Positions 1,280 to 54,750 of a DNA stretch of 64,000 bases are shown piece by piece; the stretch's first letter is position 1; the number at the start of each line of letters is the position of its first letter. The stretch spans positions 992,001-1,056,000 of the forward strand of contig NZ_QJTD01000001.1 of assembly GCF_003217215.1 (NCBI RefSeq). The letters are read 5' to 3'. The notes under the pieces are model-generated. The model was not told where the DNA came from. It saw nothing but the letters and a program-made list of their open reading frames with translations, and searched no databases. This DNA is from Winogradskyella epiphytica. GTDB taxonomy: Bacteria > Bacteroidota > Bacteroidia > Flavobacteriales > Flavobacteriaceae. The position numbers and the translations under genes are program-made.

Positions 1280-2350
1280 TTAGTTTTCATAAATGCCAAT
1301 ATGTAATTCGCCTTTGTCATTCATAGTTGCGCGATACATTCCAGCTGTATTAAATTCCATGACCATATTTCCATTTTTATCCACGGCAACGATGCCTCCT
1401 GTGCCTCCTAATTCGGTGAGTTTTTCTTGAATGACTACACGCGACGCTTCTTTTAATGATAAACCTTTGTATTCCATAAGTGCCGAAATATCATGAGCGA
1501 CCATTCCTCTAATAAAATATTCTCCCCAGCCTGTGCTCGACACCGCGCAGGTGGCATTATTAGCGTAAGTTCCCGCACCAATTATAGGTGTATCACCAAT
1601 TCTGCCATAACGTTTATTGGTCATTCCGCCAGTTGACGTTCCTGCAGTTAGGTTTCCATTTTTATCCAATGCGACACATCCAACGGTTCCAAATTTTGAA
1701 TCCTTTATGTTTGGGTCATAAAAAGCAGTCTTCCCGTCATGGTCGAGTTCTGTTTTTTCTTTGTCTTTTATGTTCTTAAGGGAATTGAATCTGCTTTCCG
1801 TAAAGAAATAATCTGGCTGAACAATTTCTAGACCTTGTTCTTGGGCAAATGTTTCGGCTCCTTCTCTTGATAGCATAACATGTTCAGATTTTTCCATAAT
1901 TACTCTTGCTAGATTGATAGGGTTTTTTACGGTTGTGGTTCCAGCAGACGCTCCCGCGTTTAGAGTTTTACCGTCCATAATAGAGGCATCTAGCTCATTG
2001 GTACCTTCGTTTGTAAAAACAGCACCTTTTCCGGCATTAAACAATGGTGAATCCTCCATAACATTGATGGTTTTTTCAACAGCATCTATGCTGCTTCCGC
2101 CATTTTTTAATATGTCATAACCGACTCTAATGGCTTCTTCAAGTTTAGCTTTGTATTCGGCCTCACGTTCTGGAGTCATATTTGCTTTTAAAATAGTTCC
2201 AGCACCTCCATGAATCACAATAGCGAAGTCTTGTTTTTCAACTTTCGTTTCAATAATGGTCTTATCTTTAGAGGTTTCTGTTTTTTGTCCATCCTTTTTG
2301 CAAGTAAAAAACAATAGAGATAGAAAAAGCAGTGTAATTGGTTTTTTCAT
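1280..2350 (-). CDS. Isoaspartyl peptidase / L-asparaginase (Ntn-hydrolase, asparaginase_2 family), lipoprotein
   Basis: A 356-aa protein. A lipoprotein signal (lipobox FFTC, Cys17) places it at the membrane or periplasm. The mature part matches plant-type asparaginase/isoaspartyl peptidases. These cleave themselves in front of a catalytic Thr, seen here as Thr222 in the FGTVG motif, followed by the conserved TSTGGMTNK and GRIGDTP blocks that bind substrate. 'VIHGGAG' near residue 46 is the family N-terminal signature. It probably hydrolyses isoaspartyl dipeptides or asparagine outside the cytoplasm. It lies 158 bp upstream of the A2M gene on the same strand and is divergent from the aldehyde dehydrogenase. 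Which substrate is preferred cannot be read from sequence. Confidence 0.88.
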   Translation of the reverse strand: MKKPITLLFLSLLFFTCKKDGQKTETSKDKTIIETKVEKQDFAIVIHGGAGTILKANMTPEREAEYKAKLEEAIRVGYDILKNGGSSIDAVEKTINVMEDSPLFNAGKGAVFTNEGTNELDASIMDGKTLNAGASAGTTTVKNPINLARVIMEKSEHVMLSREGAETFAQEQGLEIVQPDYFFTESRFNSLKNIKDKEKTELDHDGKTAFYDPNIKDSKFGTVGCVALDKNGNLTAGTSTGGMTNKRYGRIGDTPIIGAGTYANNATCAVSSTGWGEYFIRGMVAHDISALMEYKGLSLKEASRVVIQEKLTELGGTGGIVAVDKNGNMVMEFNTAGMYRATMNDKGELHIGIYEN

Positions 2351-2472
2351 TAGGCTAAAATATGGATTGTGTGCTTAAAATTACACAATTTAAGAATGTT
2401 GCGCTTCGACAAACTAACATTTTATTAGTAACTTCGCGGGAAAGTTTAATAATTCATAAAAAATAAGCAAAT

Positions 2473-4026
2473 ATGGAAGCAGTAGCTACCGATTTCGGAA
2501 TTAAAGAGGCCTTAAAGCAATTAGGCGTAAAAGATATAAATGAAGGGACCTCAACGGGTTCAAATAATTTTTCAAACGGAGAAATTATTGAGAGTTATTC
2601 TCCTGTAGATGGTCAATTAATTGCCAAGGTTAAATCTACAACTCGTGAAGATTATGATAAAGTGATGGATGCTGCAACAAGCGCATTTAAAACTTGGAGA
2701 GATATTCCTGCTCCGCAACGTGGCGAAATTGTTCGTCAGTTTGGTAATAAATTAAGAGAATTAAAAGAGCCATTAGGTAAGTTAGTGTCTTACGAAATGG
2801 GTAAATCTTTACAAGAGGGTTACGGTGAAGTTCAAGAAATGATTGATATCTGTGATTTCGCAGTTGGATTATCAAGACAATTAAACGGTCTTACCATTCC
2901 TTCAGAACGTCCAGGTCACGTAATGAGAGAGCAATGGCACCCAATTGGGGTAGTTGGAATTATCTCTGCATTTAACTTCCCGGTTGCAGTTTGGTCTTGG
3001 AACACAGCTTTAGCATGGGTTTGTGGTGATGTTTGTGTTTGGAAAGCATCTGAAAAAGCACCTTTATGTTCTATAGCTTGTCAAAATATTATTGCCGAAG
3101 TATTAAAAGAAAATAATTTACCAGAAGGAATTTCTTGTATCGTAAACGGAGACTACAAAGTAGGTGAGTTTATGACAAAGGATAGAAGAGTTGCTTTAGT
3201 TTCTGCAACAGGATCTACAAGAATGGGTAAAATTGTTGGAGTAACAGTTGCTGAGCGTTTTGGTAAATCTTTATTAGAATTAGGAGGAAACAACGCCATC
3301 ATTATTACACCAACAGCAGATTTAAAAGTAGTAGTTCCTGGTGCTGTATTTGGAGCTGTTGGAACTTGTGGTCAACGTTGTACTTCTACACGTCGTTTAA
3401 TTATTCACGAATCGGTTTACGATAAGGTGCGTGATGCGATTGTTGGAGCTTACAAACAAATTAAGATTGGTAACCCATTAGATGAAAATAATCACGTTGG
3501 ACCATTAATCGATAAAGATTCTGTAAACACGTATTTAGCGGCAATTGAAAAAGCTAAAGCTGAAGGTGGAAACGTTTTAGTTGAAGGTGGAGTTTTAGAA
3601 GGTGAAGGTTTTGAAAGTGGTTGCTACGTAAAACCAGCAATTATTGAAGCTGAAAACCATTTTGAAATTGTACAGCACGAAACATTTGCTCCAATTTTAT
3701 ACATCATGAAATACTCTGGAGATCTTGAAAACGCTATTGAAATGCAAAATGGTGTGGCTCAAGGTTTATCTTCTGCAATTATGACTAACGAAATGAAAGA
3801 AGCTGAAAGATTCTTATCATACGCTGGTTCAGATTGTGGTATTGCAAACGTAAACATTGGTACTTCTGGTGCGGAAATCGGAGGAGCTTTCGGTGGTGAA
3901 AAAGAAACAGGTGGTGGACGTGAGTCTGGATCTGATGCTTGGAAAGTGTACATGAGAAGACAAACAAATACTATTAACTACTCAGATGAATTGCCTTTAG
4001 CGCAAGGAATCAAATTTGACCTATAA
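2473..4026 (+). CDS. Aldehyde dehydrogenase, ALDH7 (antiquitin / aminoadipate-semialdehyde dehydrogenase) type
   Basis: A 517-aa cytoplasmic NAD(P)-dependent aldehyde dehydrogenase. Visible catalytic residues are Asn168 in SAFNFP, Glu269 in LLELGGNNA and the nucleophile Cys303 in CGQRCTSTRR. The LELGGNNA motif and the C-terminal GGAFGGEKETGGGRESGSDAWK block are typical of ALDH7, which oxidises alpha-aminoadipic semialdehyde (piperideine-6-carboxylate) in lysine breakdown. The role in lysine degradation is inferred from family. It is a single gene followed by a strong hairpin terminator. A weak promoter candidate (TAACTTCG, 2429-2436) lies 37 bp upstream of the ATG. Confidence 0.88.
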   Translation: MEAVATDFGIKEALKQLGVKDINEGTSTGSNNFSNGEIIESYSPVDGQLIAKVKSTTREDYDKVMDAATSAFKTWRDIPAPQRGEIVRQFGNKLRELKEPLGKLVSYEMGKSLQEGYGEVQEMIDICDFAVGLSRQLNGLTIPSERPGHVMREQWHPIGVVGIISAFNFPVAVWSWNTALAWVCGDVCVWKASEKAPLCSIACQNIIAEVLKENNLPEGISCIVNGDYKVGEFMTKDRRVALVSATGSTRMGKIVGVTVAERFGKSLLELGGNNAIIITPTADLKVVVPGAVFGAVGTCGQRCTSTRRLIIHESVYDKVRDAIVGAYKQIKIGNPLDENNHVGPLIDKDSVNTYLAAIEKAKAEGGNVLVEGGVLEGEGFESGCYVKPAIIEAENHFEIVQHETFAPILYIMKYSGDLENAIEMQNGVAQGLSSAIMTNEMKEAERFLSYAGSDCGIANVNIGTSGAEIGGAFGGEKETGGGRESGSDAWKVYMRRQTNTINYSDELPLAQGIKFDL

Positions 4027-4048
4027 GTATTATAATTAGATAAGGTTA

Positions 4049-4077
4049 AAAGCCGCATCGAGAGATGCGGCTTTTTT
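4049..4077 (+). terminator. Rho-independent terminator after the aldehyde dehydrogenase
   Basis: Stem AGCCGCAT / ATGCGGCT (4051-4058, 4065-4072) with a six-base loop and a run of six T, 24 bp after the stop codon. Confidence 0.9.
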
Positions 4078-4104
4078 ATGTTTTCATAACTTCGATAAAA
4101 TGCA

Positions 4105-4157
4105 TAAAAAAACCTTGTTTCAAATCCAGTTTTTGGGACTTTCAAGGAAACAAGGCT
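4105..4157 (-). terminator. Candidate terminator for the minus-strand gene 4319-5458
   Basis: Arms CCTTGTTTC (4113-4121) and GAAACAAGG (4147-4155) with a 25-base loop. On the minus strand the second arm is followed by seven T. It lies about 160 bp beyond the AlbA_2 gene, and the large loop makes it less certain. The rest of 4078-4318 shows no gene. Confidence 0.5.
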
Positions 4158-4318
4158 TAAAATAATTGATTAATAGCATTACAAAGATGTAAAATAATTT
4201 CACTCTTTAGCAATAAATATGATGAATGGTTAAAAAAAATGTATAATCAGTATGTTTTTTATATGTCAATCGGTAAAGTGTATAATATAGCGATGAAACG
4301 ATTATAATTTCCGACCAA

Positions 4319-5458
4319 CTAATTATATTTTACTTTTCTCAATATGCGAATAGTTTCTTTATAAGAAGAATACAGAGTAGAACTATAGTTCTTTAAATAT
4401 GGCTTTACAGCTTCCAATTTTATCAAGGCATTTTCAAAACCAAAACCGTTGAGGTAACAAATTAAATAACTGGCCGCTAAATTATGCAGGTCTTCAGTTT
4501 CTATTTGCGTCAAAGAAACATTCTTTTTTAGTTTCTCAAAAATCACATTATTTGTGTTAAAAATATGATGTAATACTTTTTTGTTGAATTGAGGTGGATT
4601 AAAAACAAGATTGGTTTCTATGGAATAATGTGCATTATCTCCAAAATGAATAATCTTTTCTTCAAGCTTATAAAAGTTGAAGGACGATTGTAAACCTAAT
4701 TTTACATACTCTGTTATTTTGAAAGCATCCTCGGTATATGAAATGGTCACTCTGTCTAGGGTTGAATAAAATAGCCGAACTTGTTCATTTACTAATTCAA
4801 TATCAACCCTTGAAAAAAAAGTTTCATCGTCGATCTGTTTTTTATCTCCCGACCAACACAGAACAAAATATTCTTTAAAAACTTTATACTGAGGGTTAAG
4901 ATCTTGGCGCTTGTTCATAAAATCAAAGACGCCATCCAGTGTCAATTTGATGTTATTCTGCGCATGTTTTTCTATCGCTTCAACAATCTTTGAATTAACA
5001 TCTTTAATATCAATATCGAAAACCTTAGGCATACTCATGCTTCCATCTCTAAGAAAGACAGCACCACCATAATATTTCCAAATATTTTTCTTCAGTGAGG
5101 TAATTTCGCCATTAGGTCTTATGGTAACTAATCCCACTACCTTATGATCTGGTAAATGTGGAAAAGGAATATTTTCATATTGAACAATTGGCGGATTGGA
5201 GAGGTAAGCATTAATGAGGTTCTGTATTTTGCTATCATCAAAGAAGTCAGCGCCCACAATACTATTGTCTTCGTCTTCAACACCAATAACGATATACGAG
5301 TTGTTTTTGGGATTACTATTAGAAAGGGCGCATACATGCTTCAAGAACTTGGCTTTACCTTCTTTATGAGTAATATCAATTTGTCTCTTTTTATCATAGA
5401 AACTATTCTCATCATTGTGAGCGAGCAAATGTTTTATGAGTAAGCGTTTGTTAATCAT
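4319..5458 (-). CDS. AlbA_2 (Schlafen-like) domain, putative DNA-binding / ATP-binding protein
   Basis: A 379-aa protein whose first 150 residues resemble the AlbA_2 domain: 'FLKHVCALSNSNP', then 'SYIVIGVEDEDN..IVGADFFDD', then a 'PNGEITSLKKNIWKYYGGAVFLRDGSM' block near residues 115-140. Proteins of this type are annotated as ATP-binding or transcriptional regulators. A biochemical function is not established for this subtype. The C-terminal 230 residues match nothing I know. It starts 27 bp after the SDR gene on the same strand, so it may be co-transcribed with the SDR and aldo/keto reductase genes. It could be a regulator or a stress/defence-linked protein. Confidence 0.6.
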   Translation of the reverse strand: MINKRLLIKHLLAHNDENSFYDKKRQIDITHKEGKAKFLKHVCALSNSNPKNNSYIVIGVEDEDNSIVGADFFDDSKIQNLINAYLSNPPIVQYENIPFPHLPDHKVVGLVTIRPNGEITSLKKNIWKYYGGAVFLRDGSMSMPKVFDIDIKDVNSKIVEAIEKHAQNNIKLTLDGVFDFMNKRQDLNPQYKVFKEYFVLCWSGDKKQIDDETFFSRVDIELVNEQVRLFYSTLDRVTISYTEDAFKITEYVKLGLQSSFNFYKLEEKIIHFGDNAHYSIETNLVFNPPQFNKKVLHHIFNTNNVIFEKLKKNVSLTQIETEDLHNLAASYLICYLNGFGFENALIKLEAVKPYLKNYSSTLYSSYKETIRILRKVKYN

Positions 5459-5485
5459 TATACTTCCTTAGATCATTTCGAAATG

Positions 5486-6238
5486 TTAGAATTCTTTTTT
5501 CACAATTGTTGAACTCGCTTGAGCAGTACAAAACATTAAAATATCTGCAATATTCACATGTGCTGGTCTCGATACTGCAAAATAGATCACTTCTGCAACG
5601 TCCTCTGCTTGTAAAGCTTTATAGCCTTTATACACATTATCAGCGGCAGAATCACCTTTAAATCTCACTTCTGAAAATTCGGTTTCTACTAAGCCGGGAT
5701 TGACTGCACCAACTTTAATTCCATAGGGATTTAAATCTATACGCATTCCTTCAGTTATCGCTAAAACTGCATGTTTACTACCACAATAGACATTCCCATT
5801 AGGATAGACCTCTTTTCCAGCCGAAGAACCGATATTAATTATATGACCAAATTTTCTTTCTGTCATTCCTGGAATAACGGCCTTGCTCACATAAAGTAAG
5901 CCTTTTACATTAATATCCATCATAGCATCCCAATCGTCTAAATCTCCCGACTGGATAGGGTCAAGACCATGTGCATTTCCAGCATTATTTATCAGAATGT
6001 CAATGTTTTTAAATTCTTTTGGTAAAGATGCAATCGCTTCAAGCGTTTTTTCTCTATCTCGTACATCAAAGTTTAAAGTATGCACATTGGTCTCTCTAGA
6101 TAAGGCTTTTTTAATACTATCTAATCGTTGTTGTCTGCGACCACATAAGATTAAGTCGATGTTATGTTTGGCGAATTCGTGAGCAGTTGCTCTACCTATT
6201 CCGCTTGTTGCACCTGTTATTAATGCTGTTTTTCTCAT
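5486..6238 (-). CDS. SDR-family oxidoreductase (YdfG-like, NADP-dependent)
   Basis: A 250-aa classical short-chain dehydrogenase. Cofactor motif TGATSGIG (residues 8-15), GRR near 33-35 suggesting NADP preference, NNAG at 84-87, and catalytic Asn109, Ser138, Tyr151 and Lys155 (YCGSK). The C-terminal 'AQAS' segment resembles YdfG, which oxidises serine/3-hydroxy acids or reduces malonic semialdehyde. The true substrate here is not known. The ATG is preceded by a TTCCTGC-GACG-GCAGGAA palindrome (6248-6265). It lies between the aldo/keto reductase (85 bp gap) and the AlbA_2 gene (27 bp gap). Confidence 0.85.
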   Translation of the reverse strand: MRKTALITGATSGIGRATAHEFAKHNIDLILCGRRQQRLDSIKKALSRETNVHTLNFDVRDREKTLEAIASLPKEFKNIDILINNAGNAHGLDPIQSGDLDDWDAMMDINVKGLLYVSKAVIPGMTERKFGHIINIGSSAGKEVYPNGNVYCGSKHAVLAITEGMRIDLNPYGIKVGAVNPGLVETEFSEVRFKGDSAADNVYKGYKALQAEDVAEVIYFAVSRPAHVNIADILMFCTAQASSTIVKKEF

Positions 6239-6247
6239 AGTGTATTA

Positions 6248-6265
6248 TTCCTGCGACGGCAGGAA
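6248..6265. repeat. TTCCTGC/GCAGGAA palindrome upstream of the SDR start
   Basis: Seven-base perfect arms around a GACG loop, ending 9 nt before the SDR ATG on the minus strand. A close relative (ATTCCTGCA/TGCAGGAAT) occurs at 22472-22491. It belongs to the loose family of TTCC...GGAA dyads described in the findings. Confidence 0.7.
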
Positions 6266-6323
6266 GCTTTTTGTTAATTATTGTTCTTAGTATAGTGGAG
6301 GTTTCTGATTTCTCGGGAATTTA

Positions 6324-7187
6324 TTAAGGAACCTTATGACCTTGACTAGCGACTAAAATCAAGAACCAATCCTCTAATTCTAAATTGATTTTTGAAGCTT
6401 CCACAGCTTGTTTTAGTCGTTCTTTGGAAGTTGTTCCAACAACAGGGTGAATTCCCGCCGGATGCTTCATAATCCAAGCTAGTAACAGCTGATCTTCTGT
6501 AGCATTGTATTTATCTTTTAATAGACCGAGTTGATTGTGTATGCGTCTAGTTTGTTCAGTATCTTCTTTAAATACTGATCCTAATGGCGACCACGCCATA
6601 GGCTTAATACCATTAGTCATCATATAGTCTAATGTGCCATCGTGCATTGCAGCATGTGCTGTGAGTGAAAATTCAATTTGGTTTACATCAATATCAGCAC
6701 GTAATCCAATTAAATCCATTTGTGAAGCATTAAAGTTGGAGACCCCAAAATCACTAATCTTTCCATCTTTTTTCAAAATCGTGATGGCTTCAGCAATTTC
6801 TTCAGCAACCATCAAAGGACTCGGGCGATGAAGCAGTAATAAATCTAAATATTCAGTGTTGAGATGCTTTAAAGATTGTTCAACTGACCAGATAATATAC
6901 TTTTTGCTATAATCATAATGCTTTACTTTGTTTGGTCTACTGTCACATAAGTATTGAATGCCACACTTGGAAATGAGTTGAATGTCTTTACGTTGAATTC
7001 CGGAATCCTTAAAAGCTTGACCAAAGGCTGCCTCTGTAGTGTAAGCGCCGTAAATATCAGCATGGTCAAATGTAGAAATGTTATGAGCAACGCAGAAGTC
7101 TATTAAATCTGCGGTCTCTTTTTTAGAAAGCTGTTTACCCCAGCTTCCCCAGGACATAGTGCCTGCAATTAATCGAGAATATGTCAC
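6324..7187 (-). CDS. Aldo/keto reductase (YdhF-like)
   Basis: A 287-aa single-domain (beta/alpha)8 NADPH-dependent oxidoreductase of the AKR superfamily. The catalytic tetrad is visible as Asp41 (DHADIYG), Tyr46, Lys74 (LISKCG) and His120 (LLLLHRPSP). The phosphate-binding region near the C-terminus is 'GTTSKERLKQA'. The N-terminus 'RLIAGTMSWGSW' is like E. coli YdhF, whose substrate is unknown. It is the first gene of a minus-strand group (AKR, SDR, AlbA_2), consistent with a small carbonyl-reduction unit, and is divergent from the DUF4382 lipoprotein gene. Confidence 0.87.
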   Translation of the reverse strand: MTYSRLIAGTMSWGSWGKQLSKKETADLIDFCVAHNISTFDHADIYGAYTTEAAFGQAFKDSGIQRKDIQLISKCGIQYLCDSRPNKVKHYDYSKKYIIWSVEQSLKHLNTEYLDLLLLHRPSPLMVAEEIAEAITILKKDGKISDFGVSNFNASQMDLIGLRADIDVNQIEFSLTAHAAMHDGTLDYMMTNGIKPMAWSPLGSVFKEDTEQTRRIHNQLGLLKDKYNATEDQLLLAWIMKHPAGIHPVVGTTSKERLKQAVEASKINLELEDWFLILVASQGHKVP

Positions 7188-7290
7188 TTTATTTTCAGTT
7201 TATATAGGTTTTTGTGCAATTCATGTATAAAAATACGCAAAACATAGATAATACGGTATTATTGAATAGTTATTAATCAACCTCTCATTT

Positions 7291-7857
7291 ATGAATTCTA
7301 TTACGACTTTCAGGTACGTCATTCTTGCATTTATTGTGCTACTTAGTGTGTCCAGTTGTTCAAAAGAGGATATGGATTCCAAAGGTCACTTAACAGGTGT
7401 TAACGTGAAACTAAAAAGTACAGCGGGAGTATTAGATAAGGTTTATGTAGATATTGCAGATGTTCAGTTGCAAGTAAAAGAGAATACAGATGCGCCAAAC
7501 GCTTGGAGAAGTCTAAATGCTATCAGTGGAACGCATAATGTTTCTGACTTACGCGATGGTGTGGAGCTTGTTCTGGTGGAAAGCGCTGCGGTAGAGTCAA
7601 CTTTTATCTATGCTATAAGATTAGTGTTAGGTGATAATAATTTTATAGACTATAATCATGTGTTATATAGTTTGGATGTTACAACAATTGGAAATGCTGC
7701 GCCTTCAAACTTAGTGCGATCGGAATTCATTTCTGATGGTTTTTATGACATTGTTATTGATATAGATATAGACAATTCCGTAAGGTATGACCAAGAAGAA
7801 TCATTGATAATTTTAGATCCAAAATTATATACTGAAATCAGAAAAATTAAATATTAA
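7291..7857 (+). CDS. DUF4382 lipoprotein (short form)
   Basis: A 188-aa protein with a lipobox (VSSC, Cys23), so membrane-anchored on the periplasmic or surface side. The mature part, 'VNVKLKSTAGVLDKVYVDIADVQLQV...', followed by 'DLRDGVELVLVESAAVESTFIYAIRLVLGDNN', matches DUF4382, a beta-rich domain common in Bacteroidota lipoproteins with no proven function. The next gene encodes the same domain with an added C-terminal domain, so the two look like a tandem duplication. A terminator follows the gene. Confidence 0.78.
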   Translation: MNSITTFRYVILAFIVLLSVSSCSKEDMDSKGHLTGVNVKLKSTAGVLDKVYVDIADVQLQVKENTDAPNAWRSLNAISGTHNVSDLRDGVELVLVESAAVESTFIYAIRLVLGDNNFIDYNHVLYSLDVTTIGNAAPSNLVRSEFISDGFYDIVIDIDIDNSVRYDQEESLIILDPKLYTEIRKIKY

Positions 7858-7876
7858 TTACCTAATCCTTAATTCA

Positions 7877-7938
7877 TAGGACGTGTTCAAGTGCGTCCTA
7901 AAATTGAAAAGAGTAGTATGAAAGTACTGCTTTTTTTT
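7877..7938 (+). terminator. Two hairpins after the first DUF4382 gene, the second with a T run
   Basis: First hairpin TAGGACG / CGTCCTA (7877-7883, 7894-7900). Second AGTAGTA / TACTGCT (7912-7918, 7925-7931), with one G-T pair, followed by eight T. The second is the likely terminator. The remaining bases to 8040 show nothing clear. Confidence 0.7.
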
Positions 7939-8040
7939 GTGGGAATTTTTAAGAGACTGGCAGTCATTGAATTGTGGCAAAATTGATCCAAACACCACTA
8001 TTTTCCGTATATACACTATAAACCTTAAAAATAGATAACC

Positions 8041-8862
8041 ATGAAATTTTTAAAACAAATTGCATCAATTTTAGTAATATTCGTAGCATTTTCATGTAGC
8101 GATTCAGATAATTCAGATAATTCGGGTACAGCAAAAATGTCTGTAAAATTAGTTGACGAACCAGGTGATTATGAACATGTTTTTGTTGAAGTGGTAGATG
8201 TCATGGTGAAGTATCAAAATAATTCTGAAAACGATGACGATAGCGGTTGGGAATCTATAGGAATTGTGAACCCTGGAGTTTATGATTTATTAGAATTAAC
8301 TGGTGGAGTTAGCCTAAGTTTAGTTGAAAATGCAGACATTCAAACAGGAACTATAAAGCAAATAAGATTATTATTAGGAGAGGATAACAGTGTTGTTTTA
8401 GCAGGAGAAACAGAGCCACGTTCGTTGAATACACCAAGTGCTCAACAGTCTGGATTGAAAGTGATGATTAATCAAGATATTGAAGCAGGTTATAATTACG
8501 ATTTTATCCTAGATTTCGATGTAGATGAATCTATCGTTGTGGCTGGTAATTCTGGAAACATTAATTTGAAACCAGTTTTAAGAGCGAGTTTAGAAGTGAA
8601 TTCAGGAACTTTGGCAGGTGTTATTACTAATGCAGATGTTGCAGTACAAGTTTCTATAGACAATGGTGAAGGTGTAACAGCATCTACCATGGTTAATGAA
8701 GCGGGAATTTTTGAAATACCAGGATTACCAGCAGGAGTTTATACTATTACTGTAACACCAGATCCTAATGCTTTACCATTATATCAAGCAGTAATTATAG
8801 AAAATGTTGAAATTACTGTAGGTACAACAAATACCATAGAAGCTATTACTTTGATGGAGTAA
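8041..8862 (+). CDS. DUF4382 lipoprotein with C-terminal carboxypeptidase-regulatory-like domain
   Basis: A 273-aa lipoprotein (lipobox FSCS, Cys19) with an Asp/Ser/Asn-rich linker. DUF4382 spans about residues 32-185 ('KMSVKLVDEPGDYEHVFVEV...' to 'FILDFDVDESI'). Residues about 190-270 ('GTLAGVITNADVAVQVSIDNGE...' and 'AGIFEIPGLPAGVYTITVTP') form a beta-sandwich of the CarboxypepD_reg or Cna-B type. Probably surface-exposed, possibly binding a ligand or matrix; no enzymatic residues are seen. It is a paralogue of the preceding gene and ends with a strong terminator. Confidence 0.8.
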   Translation: MKFLKQIASILVIFVAFSCSDSDNSDNSGTAKMSVKLVDEPGDYEHVFVEVVDVMVKYQNNSENDDDSGWESIGIVNPGVYDLLELTGGVSLSLVENADIQTGTIKQIRLLLGEDNSVVLAGETEPRSLNTPSAQQSGLKVMINQDIEAGYNYDFILDFDVDESIVVAGNSGNINLKPVLRASLEVNSGTLAGVITNADVAVQVSIDNGEGVTASTMVNEAGIFEIPGLPAGVYTITVTPDPNALPLYQAVIIENVEITVGTTNTIEAITLME

Positions 8863-8889
8863 TTAAAATGCTAAATCTTAATAATTTAT

Positions 8890-8923
8890 ATAGAGCGATA
8901 CTTTAGTGTCGCTCTATTTTTTT
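8890..8923 (+). terminator. Rho-independent terminator after the second DUF4382 gene
   Basis: A 12-bp stem ATAGAGCGATAC / GTGTCGCTCTAT (one G-T pair), loop TTTA, then seven T. Confidence 0.92.
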
Positions 8924-8962
8924 AACCAATTGTTAACAGCAACTCACAAAAAAAAATGACAC

Positions 8963-8998
8963 TTTGCAACGTCGAAAAACACTATAAAGTTAGTTTTG
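8963..8998 (+). promoter_or_regulatory. Candidate promoter of the Bat operon
   Basis: A -7 box TAGTTTTG (8991-8998), which fits TAnnTTTG exactly, lies 18 bp before the moxR ATG. A TTTG at 8963-8966 could serve as the -33 box, although the 24-base spacing is on the long side. Confidence 0.55.
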
Positions 8999-9016
8999 TT
9001 TTTAAAACCCTAAATA

Positions 9017-10018
9017 ATGGAAGAAACGAGTACAGTTGATATTAAGTCAATTAACGAAAAGATAGAAAGAGAAAGTGCATTTGTTGACTTGTTAACCTTT
9101 GAAATGAATAAGGTCATTGTTGGACAAAAGCATATGGTAGAACGATTACTCATCGGTTTATTAGGTCAAGGTCATATTTTATTAGAAGGTGTGCCTGGTT
9201 TAGCAAAAACTTTAGCCATTAATACCTTGTCAAAAGCTATTGATGCTAGTTTTAGTAGAATTCAGTTTACACCAGATTTATTACCTGCAGATGTTGTTGG
9301 TACCTTAATCTTTAATATGAAGGAGAACGATTTCTCTATTAAAAAAGGGCCCATCTTTGCCAATTTCGTATTAGCAGATGAGATTAACAGGGCACCTGCA
9401 AAAGTACAGTCGGCATTATTAGAAGCCATGCAGGAAAAGCAAGTAACCATTGGTGATGAAACTTTTGTTTTAGACAAGCCTTTCTTAGTAATGGCAACTC
9501 AAAACCCAGTTGAGCAAGAAGGAACTTATCCGTTACCGGAAGCGCAAGTGGATCGTTTTATGTTGAAAACCGTTATTGATTATCCAACTATCGACGATGA
9601 GCAAATGATTGTTAGAGCCAACCTAAGAGGAACTTATGAAAAAGTGAATCCTGTGGTTTCAATTTCTCAAATTCTGAGTGCTCAAGAAGCCGTTAGAGAA
9701 GTTTATATGGATGAAAAAATCGAAAAATATATTTTAGATATCATTTTTGCAACGCGTTATCCTGAAAAATATAAGTTAGCGGATTTAAAACCATTGATTT
9801 CTTTCGGAGCATCGCCTCGTGGTAGTATCAACTTGGCAACAGCTGCTAAATGCTATGCCTTTATTAAGAGAAGAGGTTATGTAATTCCTGAAGATGTTCG
9901 TGCTATTGTACACGATGTATTACGTCACAGAATCGGAATTACTTATGAAGCAGAAGCAGAGAATATAACTTCTGAAGACATTATCAATAAGATTGTAAAT
10001 CAAATAGAAGTACCTTAA
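9017..10018 (+). CDS. MoxR-family AAA+ ATPase
   Basis: A 333-aa cytoplasmic AAA+ ATPase. Walker A GVPGLAKT (residues 58-65), Walker B LADEINR (Asp121, Glu122), and the MoxR signature 'MATQNPVEQEGTYPLPEAQ' near residues 159-177. MoxR proteins act as chaperones that help fold or activate partner von Willebrand A (VWA) proteins. The following genes encode exactly such partners: a DUF58 protein and two VWA proteins. It is the first gene of the aerotolerance (Bat) operon and has its own promoter box. Confidence 0.93.
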   Translation: MEETSTVDIKSINEKIERESAFVDLLTFEMNKVIVGQKHMVERLLIGLLGQGHILLEGVPGLAKTLAINTLSKAIDASFSRIQFTPDLLPADVVGTLIFNMKENDFSIKKGPIFANFVLADEINRAPAKVQSALLEAMQEKQVTIGDETFVLDKPFLVMATQNPVEQEGTYPLPEAQVDRFMLKTVIDYPTIDDEQMIVRANLRGTYEKVNPVVSISQILSAQEAVREVYMDEKIEKYILDIIFATRYPEKYKLADLKPLISFGASPRGSINLATAAKCYAFIKRRGYVIPEDVRAIVHDVLRHRIGITYEAEAENITSEDIINKIVNQIEVP

Positions 10019-50184: not shown

Positions 50185-50266
50185 GCTCAAGTGGTGGAAT
50201 TGGTAGACACGTTGGATTCAAAATCCAATGTCGCAAGACGTGCGGGTTCGATTCCCGCCTTGAGTA
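50185..50266 (+). tRNA. tRNA-Leu (CAA)
   Basis: An 82-nt cloverleaf. Acceptor GCTCAAG pairs with CTTGAGT (one G-U), discriminator A, no encoded CCA. The anticodon loop TTCAAAA on stem TTGGA/TCCAA gives anticodon CAA. The variable arm is long (GTCGCAAGAC), as in class II tRNAs, and the T loop is GGTTCGATTCC. Its last 23 bases form attL of the integrated element that follows; the gene stays intact. Confidence 0.97.
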
Positions 50267-50267
50267 C
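50244..50267 (+). repeat. attL: 24-bp direct repeat at the tRNA 3' end
   Basis: GGGTTC, then G, then ATTCCCGCCTTGAGTAC. It matches attR (54727-54750) except for one base (G50250 versus T54733). The unbroken identical core is 17 bp, 50251-50267. Confidence 0.93.
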
Positions 50268-50284
50268 TTATAATTTCTAAAAAT

Positions 50285-50320
50285 GCCCTATTTTCAATAT
50301 GTTTGAAGATAGGGCGTTTC
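50285..50320 (+). terminator. Terminator supplied to the tRNA by the element
   Basis: Arms GCCCTATTTTCAA (50285-50297) and TTGAAGATAGGGC (50303-50315) with one G-T pair, then GTTTC. It lies 19 bp past the tRNA, inside the element, and would replace the host terminator displaced to 54757-54799. Confidence 0.75.
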
Positions 50321-50324
50321 ATTT

Positions 50325-50353
50325 GTGCCGACATAGTGTACAACAATTGCATA
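50325..50353 (+). repeat. Left arm repeat of the element
   Basis: Starts GTGCCGACATAGTGTACAAC, then AATTGCATAA. The same 29 bp with two changes lies at 54575-54603 in direct orientation. A reverse-orientation TGTACACTAT core lies at 50494-50503. Probable integrase arm sites. Confidence 0.75.
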
Positions 50354-50617
50354 AAACCTAATTGTATTTAATGAACTGGTATCGATTTAATTAAATTAAA
50401 TATACTGGTTAAGATCATAAGTATATTATTCATTCAATAAACTAAGCCCCCCCTTACAAAGTTGCCGTGAGTATTATTCTGACTAAGTGGCGATGTACAC
50501 TATTTTAAAAGTCTAGTGATTATACCCAACCCCTTGTTTTAGATTTGAAATAAAAATGTGTGTGAACTATATATACACTCTTTTATTAACTTTAGTATAA
50601 GTATATTATATATATAA

Positions 50618-50723
50618 TACACCTACAGGTTGATTGCTATACACCTACAGGTTGATTGCTATACACCTACAGGTTGATTGCTATACACCTACAGGTTGAT
50701 TGCTATACACCTACAGGTTGATT
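50618..50723. repeat. Iteron array, 22-bp unit, 4.8 copies
   Basis: Four identical 22-bp units beginning TACACCTACAGG (starts at 50618, 50640, 50662, 50684) and a fifth of 18 bp (50706-50723). Each holds an ACCT-AC-AGGT dyad, so the dyads recur every two helical turns. The array touches the stop codon of the Rep-like gene (50724). The copies are contiguous and identical, as in plasmid replication origins. The rest of 50354-50617 holds only short AT-rich dyads and a run of seven C near 50449. Confidence 0.93.
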
Positions 50724-51200
50724 TTATTTTAAAACATATTGTTGAATTTCTTTTGTGTTGTTTCTTATATTCTCGAAAACTGTTTCTCTTTCCTGTTCTG
50801 ATAATTCATGAGGTATTTTGTAAACATTGTGTTCCGTAGTAAGTATAAAATCCCCAACATCATTTTTATTTAAAAATACAGACCCCTTATCTAAATACGG
50901 ACAATAAATAAGTCGTTGGTTTGTCTCATTTACTATTGATATTAGTTTGAGTGTTTTTAATAATTTAATTGTTCTATTTATATGATTAATAGATACATTA
51001 AATATTTTAACAAAATAGTCATCTTTTGCATAACATGGTTTCGGGTCGAATTGATTTTTTTTATTGTTGCACAACCCTCTTATCAAACAAAATAAATCTC
51101 TTTGAAATGGTGTTAAAAAAATTGGAGATTTTTTATTTGAAGTTAGTTTAATCAACCATATTGGAATAGCAATATATTGTTCTTTTTGATTTATATTCAT
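50724..51200 (-). CDS. Winged-helix protein, possible replication initiator or regulator of the element
   Basis: 158 aa. Central segment 'LTPFQRDLFCLIRGLCNNKKN', then 'CYAKDDYFVKIFNVSINHINRTIKLLKTLKLISIVNETNQRLIY' (about 60-105), reads as a winged helix: two helices, a recognition helix 'NHINRTIKLLKTL' and a wing. Such domains occur in plasmid and phage initiators and in regulators. The five 22-bp iterons begin at its stop codon, which favours a Rep role. It forms its own transcript, separated from the upstream gene by a terminator. Not assigned to a named family. Confidence 0.6.
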   Translation of the reverse strand: MNINQKEQYIAIPIWLIKLTSNKKSPIFLTPFQRDLFCLIRGLCNNKKNQFDPKPCYAKDDYFVKIFNVSINHINRTIKLLKTLKLISIVNETNQRLIYCPYLDKGSVFLNKNDVGDFILTTEHNVYKIPHELSEQERETVFENIRNNTKEIQQYVLK

Positions 51201-51221
51201 TATCTTTACTTTGTATTAGCG

Positions 51222-51244
51222 TAGCCAGTTAGTGCAATTTGAAC
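51222..51244 (-). promoter_or_regulatory. Shared upstream motif, copy 1
   Basis: TAGCCAGTT, AGTGC, AATTTGAAC (plus strand), 21 bp before the Rep-like start. A close relative (TAGCCAGTT, TGTA, AATTGAAC) lies at 52929-52949, before the 266-aa gene. Likely a common regulatory element within the mobile element. Confidence 0.4.
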
Positions 51245-51250
51245 AAAAGA

Positions 51251-51280
51251 AAAGAGCCGTTTTATAAACGGTTCTTTTTT
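51251..51280. terminator. Two-way terminator between the 160-aa and Rep-like genes
   Basis: A 12-bp stem AAAGAGCCGTTT / AAACGGTTCTTT (51251-51262, 51266-51277), loop TAT, with T and A tails. The stop codon of the 160-aa gene lies in the loop. Confidence 0.9.
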
Positions 51281-51744
51281 GTATAAATATGTTTTATGTA
51301 ATGATCTCTTAAAAATAGAAGTAGGAGGGTTTTATCAGTTATGTAGAAGTCTTTAAATATATCAACTACAAACTTCTTTTTTATATCGGATCCATAAACA
51401 AAAATGAGGTGTTGAGGGTTTTCAAAATCTTTACCTTTATTTGTTTTAGTTATAAGGTTTAGTGTTCTAGGAATATCCCCATAAAATATATTAGTAATGT
51501 TTGAATTGGCTAAACCTGTTTTACTACTTCTTACCCATGCATCAGATTTAAAATATATCCAGTATTCAAAAAACCGACTTCGATCATGAAAACCATTGTC
51601 TAGTTCTAAACGTGCAATATCAGTTAACAATGTATTGTTTTGTGTTACTGGTGTGATTCGTTTAAAATCTATTCGGGTGCCATCTTTATTACTAGACGTT
51701 TTTTCATATACGCCCCTTATAAAATCAATATTAGCCGTTTCCAT
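51262..51744 (-). CDS. 160-aa protein of the element, unknown
   Basis: A soluble 160-aa protein with no membrane segment and no motif I recognise. Features: 'RIDFKRITPVTQNNTLLTDIARLELDNGFHDRSRFFEYWIYFKSD', 'HLIFVYGSDIKKKFVVDIFKDFY' and a basic C-terminus. It overlaps the upstream HTH gene by 14 bp and is surely co-translated with it, as with replication, mobilisation or anti-host accessory proteins. No function is assigned. Confidence 0.6.
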   Translation of the reverse strand: METANIDFIRGVYEKTSSNKDGTRIDFKRITPVTQNNTLLTDIARLELDNGFHDRSRFFEYWIYFKSDAWVRSSKTGLANSNITNIFYGDIPRTLNLITKTNKGKDFENPQHLIFVYGSDIKKKFVVDIFKDFYITDKTLLLLFLRDHYIKHIYTKKNRL

Positions 51745-52036
51745 TGCTATGTGATTTATTAGAATTATAAAGGGTTTCTAGTACCTCTTTTCGACTAAAA
51801 TATGTTTTGTTCCCCATTTTATAGGGTTTCAAAATTTGTTTATGAACCCATTCATGCAAGGTCACGTAGGATATTTTTAAAAGGTTTGCCGTTTCTTTTC
51901 TAGACATAAAGTCGTCGGGTTCCTTTGGCGTCCAGTTGGTTTTTAACTCATCTAATTGAGCCTTAATTTTTTCGTCGATGAGGTTTGCCAGTGCATTAGG
52001 TGTAGTGCCTAAGAATTGAATTGTTTCAGTTGCCAT
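51731..52036 (-). CDS. MerR/excisionase-type helix-turn-helix protein
   Basis: 101 aa. The HTH_17-type domain lies at about residues 42-92: 'DDFMSRKETANLLKISYVTLHEWVHKQILKPYKMGNKTYFSRKEVLETL', with the classical 'ETANLLKIS...LHEWV' helix pair and 'GNKTYFSRKEV' wing. Proteins of this kind serve as excisionases (Xis, bending att DNA) or regulators in Bacteroidota mobile elements. The N-terminal 40 residues form a probable helix for dimerisation. It overlaps the following gene by 14 bp. Confidence 0.82.
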   Translation of the reverse strand: MATETIQFLGTTPNALANLIDEKIKAQLDELKTNWTPKEPDDFMSRKETANLLKISYVTLHEWVHKQILKPYKMGNKTYFSRKEVLETLYNSNKSHSNGNG

Positions 52037-52125
52037 AATATCTTATTTATTTGTTATTATGGTAAAACTAAGACCTGAACTAGTAGATAATAGAAGTTAA
52101 ATAGTAGTTATTAATCTACTCTTAC

Positions 52126-52926
52126 TTAATTTGTTCTTTGATACTCAAAATCATTTAATGTATCTATTAATTTAAGTCTGTATTCTTTAGGTATATGATA
52201 TTTGAATTTTGGCTGTTTTGTGTCTTTGAACTCATAAATATGAGAGAAATTCTTATTCCAATACTCGGCAAATTTTCTATGACCTTTTTTAATTCTATAA
52301 GGTAAATCTGCAATTCTCTCAAAAGTTGTATCTATCCATAAATATTGATATAAACATGCTATCGCTGTACTTTTATGAGGTTCGGTTTCTATCCAGTTAC
52401 TCACGGCGAACATGAAAAATTTTTCACTATCTATATTTTCAAATGTTTCTCTATCAAAATCAATATCTTTTAGGGTTGTTATATTTTCTTTTATGTATTC
52501 TTTTATCTCTTTTGCATTATTAATAGAATAGTAGTTTGTTATTAACCAGTCGATAAGTTGTACACGTAAAATGTTTTGAAGTACTTTTTGTGCCCTTGCT
52601 GTATCGTCTAGAACCCTATATGTAGAAATAAAAATATAAAGGTTTTCATCTTGTTTGAACTCAACAAATCCATTTTTAAAATAAACAACATCTTTAAAAC
52701 CCTCATTATATTCGAGATCGTATATAGTGTGATATTTAATTCTTTCAAGTTCTCGAGTTATGTTTTCATTAGTAACACAAGTACTTATTTCGTCATCTAA
52801 GTATATTTTTTCATCCTCAACATAATTATCTAGTGTTTTTTTGAGATTGGATAAATTTTCTTGAATTTGTTTTTTTTCATCCTCGTTAGGTATCCAAATA
52901 CCCCATTTATTAAAATTAGATTTCAT
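52126..52926 (-). CDS. 266-aa protein of the element, unknown
   Basis: A soluble, charged 266-aa protein. The N-terminal 60 residues are a predicted coiled-coil helix ('NEDEKKQIQENLSNLKKTLDNYVEDEK'), then an alpha/beta part ('GFKDVVYFKNGFVEFKQDENLYIFISTYR') and a helical C-terminus with several Trp ('WIETEPHKSTAIACLYQYLWIDTTFERIADLPYR'). I see no nuclease, ATPase, toxin or methylase motif. It is the largest non-integrase gene of the element, so it may be the cargo. A motif shared with the Rep-like gene lies 2 bp upstream. Confidence 0.6.
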   Translation of the reverse strand: MKSNFNKWGIWIPNEDEKKQIQENLSNLKKTLDNYVEDEKIYLDDEISTCVTNENITRELERIKYHTIYDLEYNEGFKDVVYFKNGFVEFKQDENLYIFISTYRVLDDTARAQKVLQNILRVQLIDWLITNYYSINNAKEIKEYIKENITTLKDIDFDRETFENIDSEKFFMFAVSNWIETEPHKSTAIACLYQYLWIDTTFERIADLPYRIKKGHRKFAEYWNKNFSHIYEFKDTKQPKFKYHIPKEYRLKLIDTLNDFEYQRTN

Positions 52927-52928
52927 TT

Positions 52929-52949
52929 TAGCCAGTTTGTAAATTGAAC
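52929..52949 (-). promoter_or_regulatory. Shared upstream motif, copy 2
   Basis: TAGCCAGTT, TGTA, AATTGAAC directly before the 266-aa gene; relative of 51222-51244. Confidence 0.4.
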
Positions 52950-53036
52950 GTAGTACTTTAACTACATAGAGTATTGAGCCTTTTTAGTCTTTTCTTTATG
53001 AGTTAAAAATATGTTTTTGATAGTGTTACCAGTTTA

Positions 53037-53213
53037 TTATTTGAGCATAGTTTTACTTTTAAACTCGTTGAAGTCTTTAAAAGGTTTTTTACCAGTTATA
53101 AACTCAACTTCATTATTTAAGTATTCAAAGGTTTCAGTTGTGGTATTAAAAAACTTGAGTAGATCAAAATAGGTATTAAAAAAACCTAGAGTAGTTGTTA
53201 TGTCGTTTTTCAT
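53037..53213 (-). CDS. 58-aa protein overlapping the integrase stop
   Basis: ATG at 53213 overlaps the integrase TGA (53210-53212) as ATGA; TAA at 53037. The 58-aa product begins MKNDITTTLGFFNTYFDLL and ends with the basic stretch 'FITGKKPFKDFNEFKSKTMLK'. It has a hydrophobic amphipathic N-terminal half and a basic tail, the size and position of recombination directionality factors or small integrase partners. It shares no HTH with known Xis. The coupled start makes translation likely. Confidence 0.65.
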   Translation of the reverse strand: MKNDITTTLGFFNTYFDLLKFFNTTTETFEYLNNEVEFITGKKPFKDFNEFKSKTMLK

Positions 53214-54523
53214 GCGGTTTCAGTTTTAACAATATCAAGTATTGGTTTTTGTTGTTTCTTTTGTTCCTGTAGTTGCCAAAATTCGTTTAATGTATTCGCG
53301 TTATCATTGGCGGTTTTATTTATATAGTTTAAAAAAACACGCTCTGTTTTATGCCCTGTTATAGCCATTAAAACTGGTGTAGGTAGTTTGCCGTAATGGT
53401 TGGTTGCAAATGATCTACGACATATATGTGAACTTACTAACTCATGTTTTGAAAATTCCCCTTTTACTTTACGCCAAACTTTCTTTTTAAGTTTCTTTGA
53501 TTTTGAGCCTTTTACCATTTCATTAATTCCCGCCAGTTCACAAACCTTTTTTATATAATCGTTAAATCGTTGACTTGAAATTTCTCGAGGAAATTCGCCT
53601 TTATTGTTTTCTAAAATTTCTTTGACTTGTGGGTGTAGTGGTAGTATTATTTTTTGATTCGTCTTTTTTGCGGTGTATTCAATAAAACCATTGTGTATAT
53701 TATCTTTTGTGAATTTCAATAAGTCACTAACTCGGGCACCAGTCCAAACGCCTATAATTAACCAGTTTCGAGCATTCTCTAAATAGGGCGTTTCTGTAAA
53801 ATCATGTTTAAAAATGGTTTGTATTTCAGTTTCCGAAAGTGTTATAAAATTTACTTTCTCTTTTGTGGCTCTAAATTCCCCATTCAATACACTAGGGTTT
53901 ATTTTGATTCCGTGTTTTTTTGCATCAAGGCACAAAGTTTTAATGTAGTTAATATAACGGCCAGTTGTATTGAGGTTTAATTTTTCAACCTTAGAGAGGT
54001 AGTTTTTAAAATCATTATAAAATTTAAGATCAACCGATTCAAAAGTATAACGTCTCTTTTGGTAAGATTCAAACGCCGAGACTTTATTTATAATGGTGTT
54101 ATATCGTTTTTTCGTGTTATCTGTTACGCCAGTATTCCCAGTATTTAAAACTTTAGTGTCGAGATTTTCTTTGTATTGTTTTGCGTAATCTAGTAAGTAA
54201 TTTAAATCGGTATTGTCATTTTGATTAAAGTATTGTTTAATCGTCTTATTTAACCATTCTGAATTAATGATACCACCACTAGAGTAATGATCGTTAAAAC
54301 TGTTTAAAATAGTTGTCTCGAGGTTGTTGAGGTCGTTTTGTAAATTCTTTTTGTTCACAAAACCCGCAATTTGTTTAACCGAGCCTTTTTGAGTATTCCA
54401 GTATTTCGGATTTATAAGTAATGAAGTAGAACGTTTTAAATCAATTTTACGCCCATGAGTAAAACGTAAATAAATAGTTGTTGGGTTTTGATTCCCTTTT
54501 GTGAAATACTTTAACGAAGCCAT
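53210..54523 (-). CDS. Tyrosine integrase of the element
   Basis: 437 aa from the ATG at 54523 (MASLKYFTKG). The frame runs back to a TTG at 54553, but that lies within the -7 box (54551-54558). It is a Bacteroidetes-type tyrosine recombinase: N-terminal arm-binding domain, SAM-like core-binding domain (about 105-220) and catalytic domain. Catalytic residues are Arg264 (GARVSD), His366 and Arg369 (SSHICRR), His391 (TGHK) and Tyr400 (FLNYI). All are present, so it should be active. A lysine-rich insertion ('KGSKSKKLKKKVWRKVKG') lies before the HxxR box. It starts 204 bp from attR. Confidence 0.93.
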   Translation of the reverse strand: MASLKYFTKGNQNPTTIYLRFTHGRKIDLKRSTSLLINPKYWNTQKGSVKQIAGFVNKKNLQNDLNNLETTILNSFNDHYSSGGIINSEWLNKTIKQYFNQNDNTDLNYLLDYAKQYKENLDTKVLNTGNTGVTDNTKKRYNTIINKVSAFESYQKRRYTFESVDLKFYNDFKNYLSKVEKLNLNTTGRYINYIKTLCLDAKKHGIKINPSVLNGEFRATKEKVNFITLSETEIQTIFKHDFTETPYLENARNWLIIGVWTGARVSDLLKFTKDNIHNGFIEYTAKKTNQKIILPLHPQVKEILENNKGEFPREISSQRFNDYIKKVCELAGINEMVKGSKSKKLKKKVWRKVKGEFSKHELVSSHICRRSFATNHYGKLPTPVLMAITGHKTERVFLNYINKTANDNANTLNEFWQLQEQKKQQKPILDIVKTETA

Positions 54524-54550
54524 AATGTGTAATCTAATAATTGAACAAAC

Positions 54551-54558
54551 CAAATATA
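54551..54558 (-). promoter_or_regulatory. -7 box of the integrase gene
   Basis: TATATTTG on the minus strand, exact match, 27 bp before the ATG at 54523. The arm repeat (54575-54603) lies just upstream, so integrase binding could repress its own promoter. Confidence 0.6.
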
Positions 54559-54574
54559 ATAAATAAATACAATG

Positions 54575-54603
54575 GTGCCGACATAGTGTACAACATTTGC
54601 CTA
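54575..54603 (+). repeat. Right arm repeat of the element
   Basis: Starts GTGCCGACATAGTGTACAAC, then ATTTGCCTAA; direct copy of 50325-50353 with two changes. Confidence 0.75.
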
Positions 54604-54634
54604 ATTTATACGAACTATTGCTAATTTATACGAA
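54601..54634 (+). repeat. Tandem CTAATTTATACGAA repeat next to attR
   Basis: Identical 14-bp blocks at 54601-54614 and 54621-54634 (20-bp period), about 95 bp from attR. Probable further binding sites for integrase or Xis. Confidence 0.65.
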
Positions 54635-54726
54635 TAGTAAAATTTAATTATAATCTTTTGAAGTAGTAATAAAATCAAGGGTTTGAGGTTGTTTTTATAG
54701 GGTTTAAAGAACTATCTCAATTAACT

Positions 54727-54750
54727 GGGTTCTATTCCCGCCTTGAGTAC
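54727..54750 (+). repeat. attR: 24-bp direct repeat
   Basis: GGGTTC, T, ATTCCCGCCTTGAGTAC; mate of attL. Not part of a tRNA: the upstream sequence lacks the rest of the cloverleaf. Confidence 0.93.

Follow-up and report, generated by a model that had tools for sequence, protein, structure and literature searches.

A minimal integrating element at tRNA-Leu(CAA) of Winogradskyella epiphytica, its unnamed family in Bacteroidia, and its candidacy as a phage satellite

A 4483-bp element follows tRNA-Leu(CAA)

We analysed a 64,000-nucleotide stretch of the Winogradskyella epiphytica genome (contig NZ_QJTD01000001.1, positions 992,001 to 1,056,000; hereafter the window), in which a small integrated element follows a tRNA-Leu(CAA) gene. 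The initial annotation, made from the letters and a list of open reading frames (ORFs), had placed here a 4.48-kb element between 24-bp repeats, and this holds: ARAGORN finds the tRNA gene, the two repeats agree at 23 of 24 positions, and the distance between them, which is the element length, is 4483 bp. Across the 64 kb the second-best match to the 24-mer at the tRNA 3' end reaches 15/24 on the plus strand and 16/24 on the minus strand. Between the repeats lie six genes, all on the minus strand, in the order int, 58-aa gene, P2, HTH_17, P160 and rep when read from the far end. The G+C content of the element is 29.1%, against 33.5% and 35.4% in the flanks. In window coordinates the features are:

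50185-50267, plus strand: tRNA-Leu(CAA), the integration target (ARAGORN; Rfam RF00005, 61.2 bits); its 3' end is the tRNA-side attachment (att) core
50244-50267, plus strand: attL, the tRNA-side att core, a 24-bp direct repeat (23/24 against 54727-54750)
50281-50319, plus strand: strong hairpin at the tRNA-side inner end (RNA fold -23 kcal/mol, z = -6.55, 0/200 shuffles as good)
50320-50354, plus strand: inner direct repeat on the tRNA side, putative integrase arm site, 89% identical to 54570-54604
50617-50723, no strand: iterons, putative origin (Tandem Repeats Finder, TRF: 4.9 copies of 22 bp, 100% matches, score 214), abutting the rep stop codon
50724-51200, minus strand: rep, winged-helix-like replication initiator, 158 aa (PHROG 270 replication initiation protein, 1.3e-5; PHROG 186 DnaD-like helicase loader, 2.7e-4)
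51262-51744, minus strand: P160, 160 aa, the family signature; the gene overlaps the helix-turn-helix (HTH) gene
51731-52036, minus strand: HTH_17 protein, 101 aa (PF12728, 1.5e-10; PHROG 66 excisionase/regulator, 9.2e-8)
52126-52926, minus strand: P2, variable helical protein, 266 aa; identity to its positional counterparts is 13-32% in eight other close members
53037-53213, minus strand: 58-aa gene, read from the translation; 4-nt overlap (ATGA) of its start with the int stop
53210-54523, minus strand: int, tyrosine recombinase, 437 aa (PF13102, 6.7e-11; PF00589, 4.4e-8; PHROG 1 integrase, 5.6e-27)
54570-54604, plus strand: inner direct repeat on the int side, putative integrase arm site, partner of 50320-50354
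54727-54750, plus strand: attR, the int-side att core, where the last 24 nt of tRNA-Leu(CAA) recur with one mismatch

The five ORFs and the iterons named initially are all present, and a sixth gene was overlooked, whose 58-aa product falls below the 60-aa limit of the ORF list. The element had also been called apparently complete. Its reading frames are indeed intact, and the comparison with relatives below adds a cargo slot between rep and the tRNA gene, which is empty here (no ORF of at least 60 aa) and which a reader of this sequence could not see.

Pfam, NCBIfam and PHROG scans covered the five larger proteins of the element. The HTH_17 protein is a probable excisionase or regulator on the strength of its family matches; it scores 4.3e-6 and 27 bits against TIGR01764 (excise), under the 28.8 cut-off of that model. 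The Pfam matches of Rep are likewise under cut-off, and P160 and P2 match no Pfam or NCBIfam family at the curated cut-off. Structure prediction had been proposed at the outset, and AlphaFold2 models were obtained for the 160-aa and 266-aa proteins: P160 is mostly beta with a C-terminal helix (predicted local distance difference test, pLDDT, 82.3), with no match in PDB or BFVD at E ≤ 0.001, and P2 is helical (pLDDT 73.7), with no PDB match at E ≤ 0.001. As the initial annotation stated, no capsid or conjugation genes are recognised in the five scanned proteins; nor are relaxase, transfer or mobilisation families, TerS or interference genes, or prophage structural, packaging or lysis genes.

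The element belongs to a family with a conserved gene order

The search for the same gene set elsewhere, suggested at the outset, came out in favour of the initial annotation. We accepted 16 loci in Bacteroidia genomes, many of them with their own att repeats and in other genera as well, which carry all or part of one gene order: integrase, often a small int-adjacent gene, the variable P2, HTH_17, P160, Rep and optional cargo. Judged by this sequence comparison, the window element is a member of an unnamed family of very small integrating elements with conserved anatomy.

Ten loci are close to one another: the window; L068 in Aureibaculum marinum (the same record as L077); L069 in genome G132; L072 in Oceanihabitans sediminis; L073 in Subsaxibacter; L074 in Algibacter pacificus; L075 in an Altibacter metagenome-assembled genome (MAG); L076 in a Urechidicola MAG; L078 in Polaribacter irgensii; and L079 in Polaribacter BAL334. 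Six more are distant (L090, L093, L094, L095, L116 and L117), L116 and L117 coming from other families of the class. The HTH gene is present in 16/16 loci and a P160 relative in 15/16, the window counted, with none in L069 and partly weak matches in the distant ones (1e-4 to 1e-13); most loci were found via P160, so that its presence is partly an effect of selection. The motif DNGxHDRSRxF is conserved across the eight aligned close copies of P160. Full-length integrases occur in 14/16 loci, L078 having a fragment and L076 none. Of the seven other full-length integrases in close members, six share 61-80% identity with that of the window, and the one in L068 shares 35%. Two close members are damaged in this position: L076 has transposase-like ORFs at 6017-7347 of its locus, and the int fragment of L078 lies at 6336-6653.

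The remaining core genes are less uniform. P2 was assigned by position in the distant loci, with sequence support in L116 only. Similarity of the small int-adjacent gene is recognised in fewer loci than that of the rest of the core; proteins similar to the 58-aa one occupy the same slot in L072, L073, L074, L075 and L069. The overlap with int, four nucleotides (ATGA) in the window, measures 4 nt in L072, L073 and L074 and 8 nt in L075, and no int-overlapping gene occurs in L068, L069 or L079.

At E ≤ 0.001 the P160 profile matches 2/68 genus genomes, the window's own included, the second (G061) carrying a distant element at tRNA-Leu(TAA). Profile matches at the same limit number 8/397 in family genomes, among them a match in G213 that was rejected as no core gene was found, and 5/395 in class genomes, including G728, which was not inspected; the genus, family and class samples overlap. 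Among genome contigs, 8/66 candidate stretches encode a relative. Matches to the 266-aa protein in G125 and G139 were rejected, the ORFs of L070 and L071 looking by eye like ordinary genes. Two further loci were dismissed by eye, with no family search: L098, which resembles a region of phage structural genes that includes a generic HTH protein, and L097, which resembles genes of a restriction-type system.

Integration sites, att repeats and an empty site

An empty site had been expected among relatives if the element is mobile, and one exists in the same genus: G081 has prs, tRNA-Leu(CAA) and metF in the same order with no element between them, and 28 nt separate the tRNA from the start of the metF-side match. 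At 30 of 67 other same-genus sites no second copy of the tRNA end (at least 18/24) lies within 1.35-2.5 kb downstream; only that distance was covered, so that the emptiness of these 30 sites is not proven. Two longer tRNA-Leu-metF spaces, L091 and L092, were rejected as members, with no match to family proteins. In L092, 71 bp between tRNA-Leu and metF (G004:C1:1619383-1619453) match the 3' end of metF, about 7.7 kb away from that gene.

A tRNA or tmRNA gene adjoins 14/16 loci. Five elements (window, L072, L073, L074 and L079) sit at tRNA-Leu(CAA), always beside prs; L069, L090, L093 and L116 are at tRNA-Leu(TAA), L075, L076 and L078 at tmRNA, L095 at tRNA-Asp and L117 at tRNA-Cys. L068 stops at its contig end, and L094 has no RNA gene within the examined stretch. 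Leaving out these two, we looked on the int side for an exact direct repeat of the RNA gene end, and found one of at least 13 bp in 12 of the 14 loci tested (window, L069, L072, L073, L074, L075, L079, L090, L093, L095, L116 and L117). None was found in the damaged members L076 and L078; a 17/24 match in L078 that lacks an exact end was not counted. Element lengths, measured in ten elements, run from 4343 to 9619 bp. On the int side of L093 (G368), three tRNA-Leu(TAA) end motifs stand 114 bp apart, at 5213, 5327 and 5441, as though more than one insertion or att scar had accumulated there.

Arm-like repeats and the replication module

Inside the att cores, the inner repeats of the window element share an exact 21-bp stretch, 78 bp from the core, which 0/100 shuffles reach. 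The same search for the longest exact motif common to both inner flanks was made in ten elements, L116 and L117 being left out, with 100 shuffles each. This motif is found 143-155 bp away from the core on the int side and 65-88 bp away from that on the RNA side, and its length is reached by 0/100 shuffles in the window, L069, L072 and L073 and by 2-4/100 in L074, L079 and L090. When gaps were allowed (200 shuffles), none was as good for the window and L069 only, and 1-24/200 were as good in the other eight. TRF reports double units of 11-12 bp at the arm position in several elements. From their sequence and near-constant distances, the inner repeats look like paired integrase arm sites.

Rep is far more variable than Int among close members. 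The window Rep aligns with the 145-aa Rep of L073 (42% identity over 140 aa, 1e-33) and weakly with those of L069 (3e-5) and L075 (0.002), and the other six close Reps are unmatched at E ≤ 0.01. Tandem repeats, differing in sequence, lie inside rep or no more than 122 bp behind it in 9/10 close members: repeats of 22-23 bp stand behind rep in the window, L068, L073, L074 and L078 (in the last about two copies, starting 122 bp behind rep) and inside rep in L069, L072 and L075, L076 has an 11-bp repeat inside rep, and L079 has no tandem repeat. Iterons within the initiator gene recall lambda O. The distant members have a different protein in the rep position, of 320-424 aa and with no informative family match. 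The combination of initiator and iterons that marks iteron plasmids is present in the window element (Rep with 4.9 copies of 22 bp); the iterons suggest theta initiation.

Cargo between rep and the RNA gene

The position between rep and the RNA gene holds no ORF of at least 60 aa in the window, L072, L074 and L079, and genes of several kinds elsewhere, some of defence type. AbiH (PF14253) occurs in L075 and L078, with E-values of 4.9e-21 and 3.7e-26 for the two proteins. L093 carries PDC-M64B, a PADLOC candidate defence protein (5.6e-30), with an HTH_3 protein; L094 has a weakly HEPN-like protein, L073 an unrecognised 200-aa protein and L116 three ORFs. The cargo of L069 comprises an HNH nuclease (1.8e-17), a 169-aa protein, a 793-aa tape-measure protein (7.2e-26) and a 96-aa winged-helix protein, and G132, its host genome, has no second tape-measure gene. 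The available text of PMC12987554 reports tmp genes in published putative satellites and putative tape-measure genes in some capsid-forming phage-inducible chromosomal islands (cf-PICIs), a likeness to L069 that makes its cargo less odd. Near the tRNA-Cys of L117 (G862), positions 6733-7068 encode a 111-aa protein that matches phrog_8771, a phage family of unknown function, at 2e-6 and has no match in phage records; by eye it resembles a terminase small subunit, a likeness unsupported by search.

A phage satellite is the favoured explanation

The initial annotation had read the locus as an integrated element with its own putative replicon, such as an integrative plasmid or a satellite, outside any named family. 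The data support this, and between the two we favour a satellite-like element. With modest confidence, we regard the window element as a minimal helper-dependent integrative element, most likely a phage satellite.

Tyrosine integrases insert elements at tRNA 3' ends in such a way that the tRNA gene is restored, and small HTH proteins act in excision. On this model the circular form would be inserted by Int at the tRNA-Leu(CAA) 3' end, restoring the gene, and the HTH_17 protein would serve as excisionase, possibly aided by the 58-aa product of the int-overlapping gene. After excision, as the anatomy of the module suggests, Rep bound to the 22-bp iterons that follow rep would start theta-type replication with a host or phage helicase. 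Copies or concatemers would then be packaged in particles of an infecting tailed phage, with no capsid-remodelling genes, as in phage-inducible chromosomal minimalist islands (PICMIs). The slot between the origin and the tRNA-side end would take up cargo, which in some relatives includes AbiH and other defence-type genes. P2 and P160 would have putative roles in this cycle.

Several results weigh against a satellite. No member bearing P160 was found in IMG/VR, where the queries included P160, or in phage records, which leaves phage packaging with no direct support, and the five scanned proteins include no recognised packaging gene. The phage relatives of Int are distant: 48 phage records match, all below 60% identity, the best listed being Cellulophaga phages at about 29.5%. 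Nor is any helper phage known; the host genome has no PF03237 terminase, the only terminase family searched, and so no resident helper of that type. Tape-measure cargo occurs in 1/16 loci, and the PADLOC AbiH model sees L075 weakly (1.3e-4) and L078 not at all. Shuffled sequences often match the inner repeats of some members (L095 22/100, L075 47/100 and L093 83/100). Finally, among the five elements beside prs, int and prs have diverged to a similar extent, with third positions 42-59% identical, and thus do not demonstrate a recent exchange between the genera concerned.

In the viral contig L112 (IMG/VR UViG_3300039008_000299, locus 1990-9924) a tape-measure gene is followed by an integrase 39% identical to that of the window; no P160 was seen in the 13.3 of 24.9 kb examined. 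Also encoded there are an HTH protein belonging to the same family and a protein distantly related to the second replication-protein type. In a DNA search of the 397 family genomes, the matches listed comprised relatives, hits to integrases and numerous weak hits of short length, with no clear CRISPR spacer among them; the spacer arrays themselves were not checked.

The strongest rival, which we consider unlikely, is a self-replicating integrative plasmid that Int excises, that replicates from its iterons and that spreads through natural transformation, or is mobilised in trans from an unrecognised origin of transfer, with no phage involved. Rep with iterons forms a replicon of plasmid type, the only nameable genes of the window element serve integration and replication, and the missing P160-bearing members among viral contigs and phage records fit this explanation as well. 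Yet 72,556 plasmid records are unmatched by Rep (limit 1e-5), P2 (limit 1) and P160 (limit 0.01, L079 copy), no relaxase or transfer gene is recognised, and the defence-type cargo and the tape-measure and HNH genes of L069 better suit elements linked to phages.

It is less probable still that the element is the remnant of a prophage or a larger integrative element, which lost its transfer or structural genes and now mainly carries integration and defence functions. Such decay would account for the two damaged members among the ten close ones (L076 and L078) and for the several Reps that match phage initiator or helicase-loader families. Against it stands a collinear core with full-length ORFs, att repeats and arm-like repeats in several genera, since independent decay would not leave the same compact core each time. 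Int, moreover, has a ratio of nonsynonymous to synonymous substitutions (dN/dS) of 0.08-0.16, and P160 one of 0.17-0.37, values computable for three of five pairs each, with dS > 1 throughout; for many pairs the ratio is undefined. A defence island vehicle, kept for host benefit through AbiH and similar genes and rarely mobile, is very improbable: defence-type cargo occurs in L075, L078, L093 and weakly L094, but the cargo-free window, L072, L074 and L079 keep the mobility core, which makes cargo optional.

Within the satellite explanation, we tentatively propose a wider reading, which we think possible and about which we are less sure than about the window element itself. It sees a lineage of minimal phage satellites spanning the class Bacteroidia, built of a constant recombination-control block (Int, often the small int-adjacent gene, P2, HTH_17 and P160), a swappable replication module (an iteron-type winged-helix Rep, or the second type with no family match) and a swappable slot for defence or phage interference, P160 being a new satellite function with no known fold relative.

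Comparison with known elements

Most known phage satellites and other small helper-dependent elements come from Proteobacteria and Firmicutes. Should the present elements be satellites, they would rank among the smallest, span several Bacteroidia families and in some cases bring defence genes; the family has probably spread by hitchhiking in viruses, sometimes with anti-virus genes. Because named strains hold full-length core genes (Oceanihabitans sediminis S9-10, Algibacter pacificus H164 and Polaribacter sp. BAL334), the idea is directly testable. In the literature searched, to which most subscription papers do not belong, we found no published description of such elements in Flavobacteriaceae, and the nearest report is of a 50-kb island in Riemerella anatipestifer (PMC9745183, available text).

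The closest parallel in layout is the PICMI, as described in the available text of PMC10803314. The prototype, PICMI115, is 6.1 kb long (6110 bp) and has six genes: int, an int-overlapping gene (ATGA), alpA, up1, prim and up2. Its excision needs int, the overlapping gene and alpA, its replication needs prim and is of the rolling-circle type, and a virulent phage packages its concatemers (PMC10803314). Both elements are small, begin with int and an ATGA-overlapping gene, continue with a small DNA-binding regulator and with an unknown gene followed by a replication gene, do without capsid-remodelling genes, and lie between short direct repeats at one chromosomal site. PICMIs protect against other phages (PMC10803314), to which defence-type cargo in relatives only would correspond here.

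The differences are as plain, the comparison being one of layout and not of sequence homology. The hosts are Bacteroidia instead of Vibrionaceae, an extra P2 lies between the overlapping gene and the HTH gene, and phage packaging, established for PICMIs, is here proposed. Of the features that define PICMIs, the window element has the tyrosine integrase (PF13102, PF00589 and PHROG 1), together with the int-overlapping gene (ATGA), which is common and not required. In place of AlpA stands the HTH_17 protein, which matches PF12728 and no AlpA family at E ≤ 1; in place of a primase, for which the five scanned proteins give no family, stand iterons and a winged-helix Rep that matches initiators and helicase loaders; and in place of the fis site stands tRNA-Leu(CAA), or in relatives tRNA-Leu(TAA), tRNA-Asp, tRNA-Cys or tmRNA. 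Lacking AlpA, primase and fis site, the window element is not a PICMI. By analogy, it may work like one.

PICIs and cf-PICIs are likewise islands at an att site that carry an integrase, a small regulator and a replication gene; PICIs are usually larger. They are set apart by TerS, capsid and interference genes, of which the window element has none recognised. Bacteroides integrative and mobilisable elements such as NBU1 share the Bacteroidota tyrosine integrase and the tRNA-Leu target and have a relaxase or mob gene, unlike the five scanned proteins, in which none was recognised. Tycheposons and VEIMEs are marine satellite-like elements with integrases and variable cargo, and were described from other hosts; we separate them from the window element by description and not by a comparison of gene sets. 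Both names occur in the available text of PMC11389934. Charybdis elements are of similar size (about 4.6 kb) and marine, and several integrated ones adjoin tRNA genes; by their description, they differ in having about 10 genes, an integrase that is only accessory, and confirmed integration in Marine Group II archaea (PMC12324425, available text).

The non-coding tRNA-side end

The hairpin at 50281-50319 is probably a terminator brought by the element. The non-coding DNA at 50268-50723 has no match in phage records, and its ten plasmid matches (E 0.4) were taken as chance. DNA similar to the hairpin stretch (50271-50361) occurs in G187 at 82% identity. Two further places have DNA like about 50274-50359 of the window with the other core genes absent: L109 (G456, 8320-8390), near a tmRNA, and L110 (G262, 9466-9550), near a different integrase.

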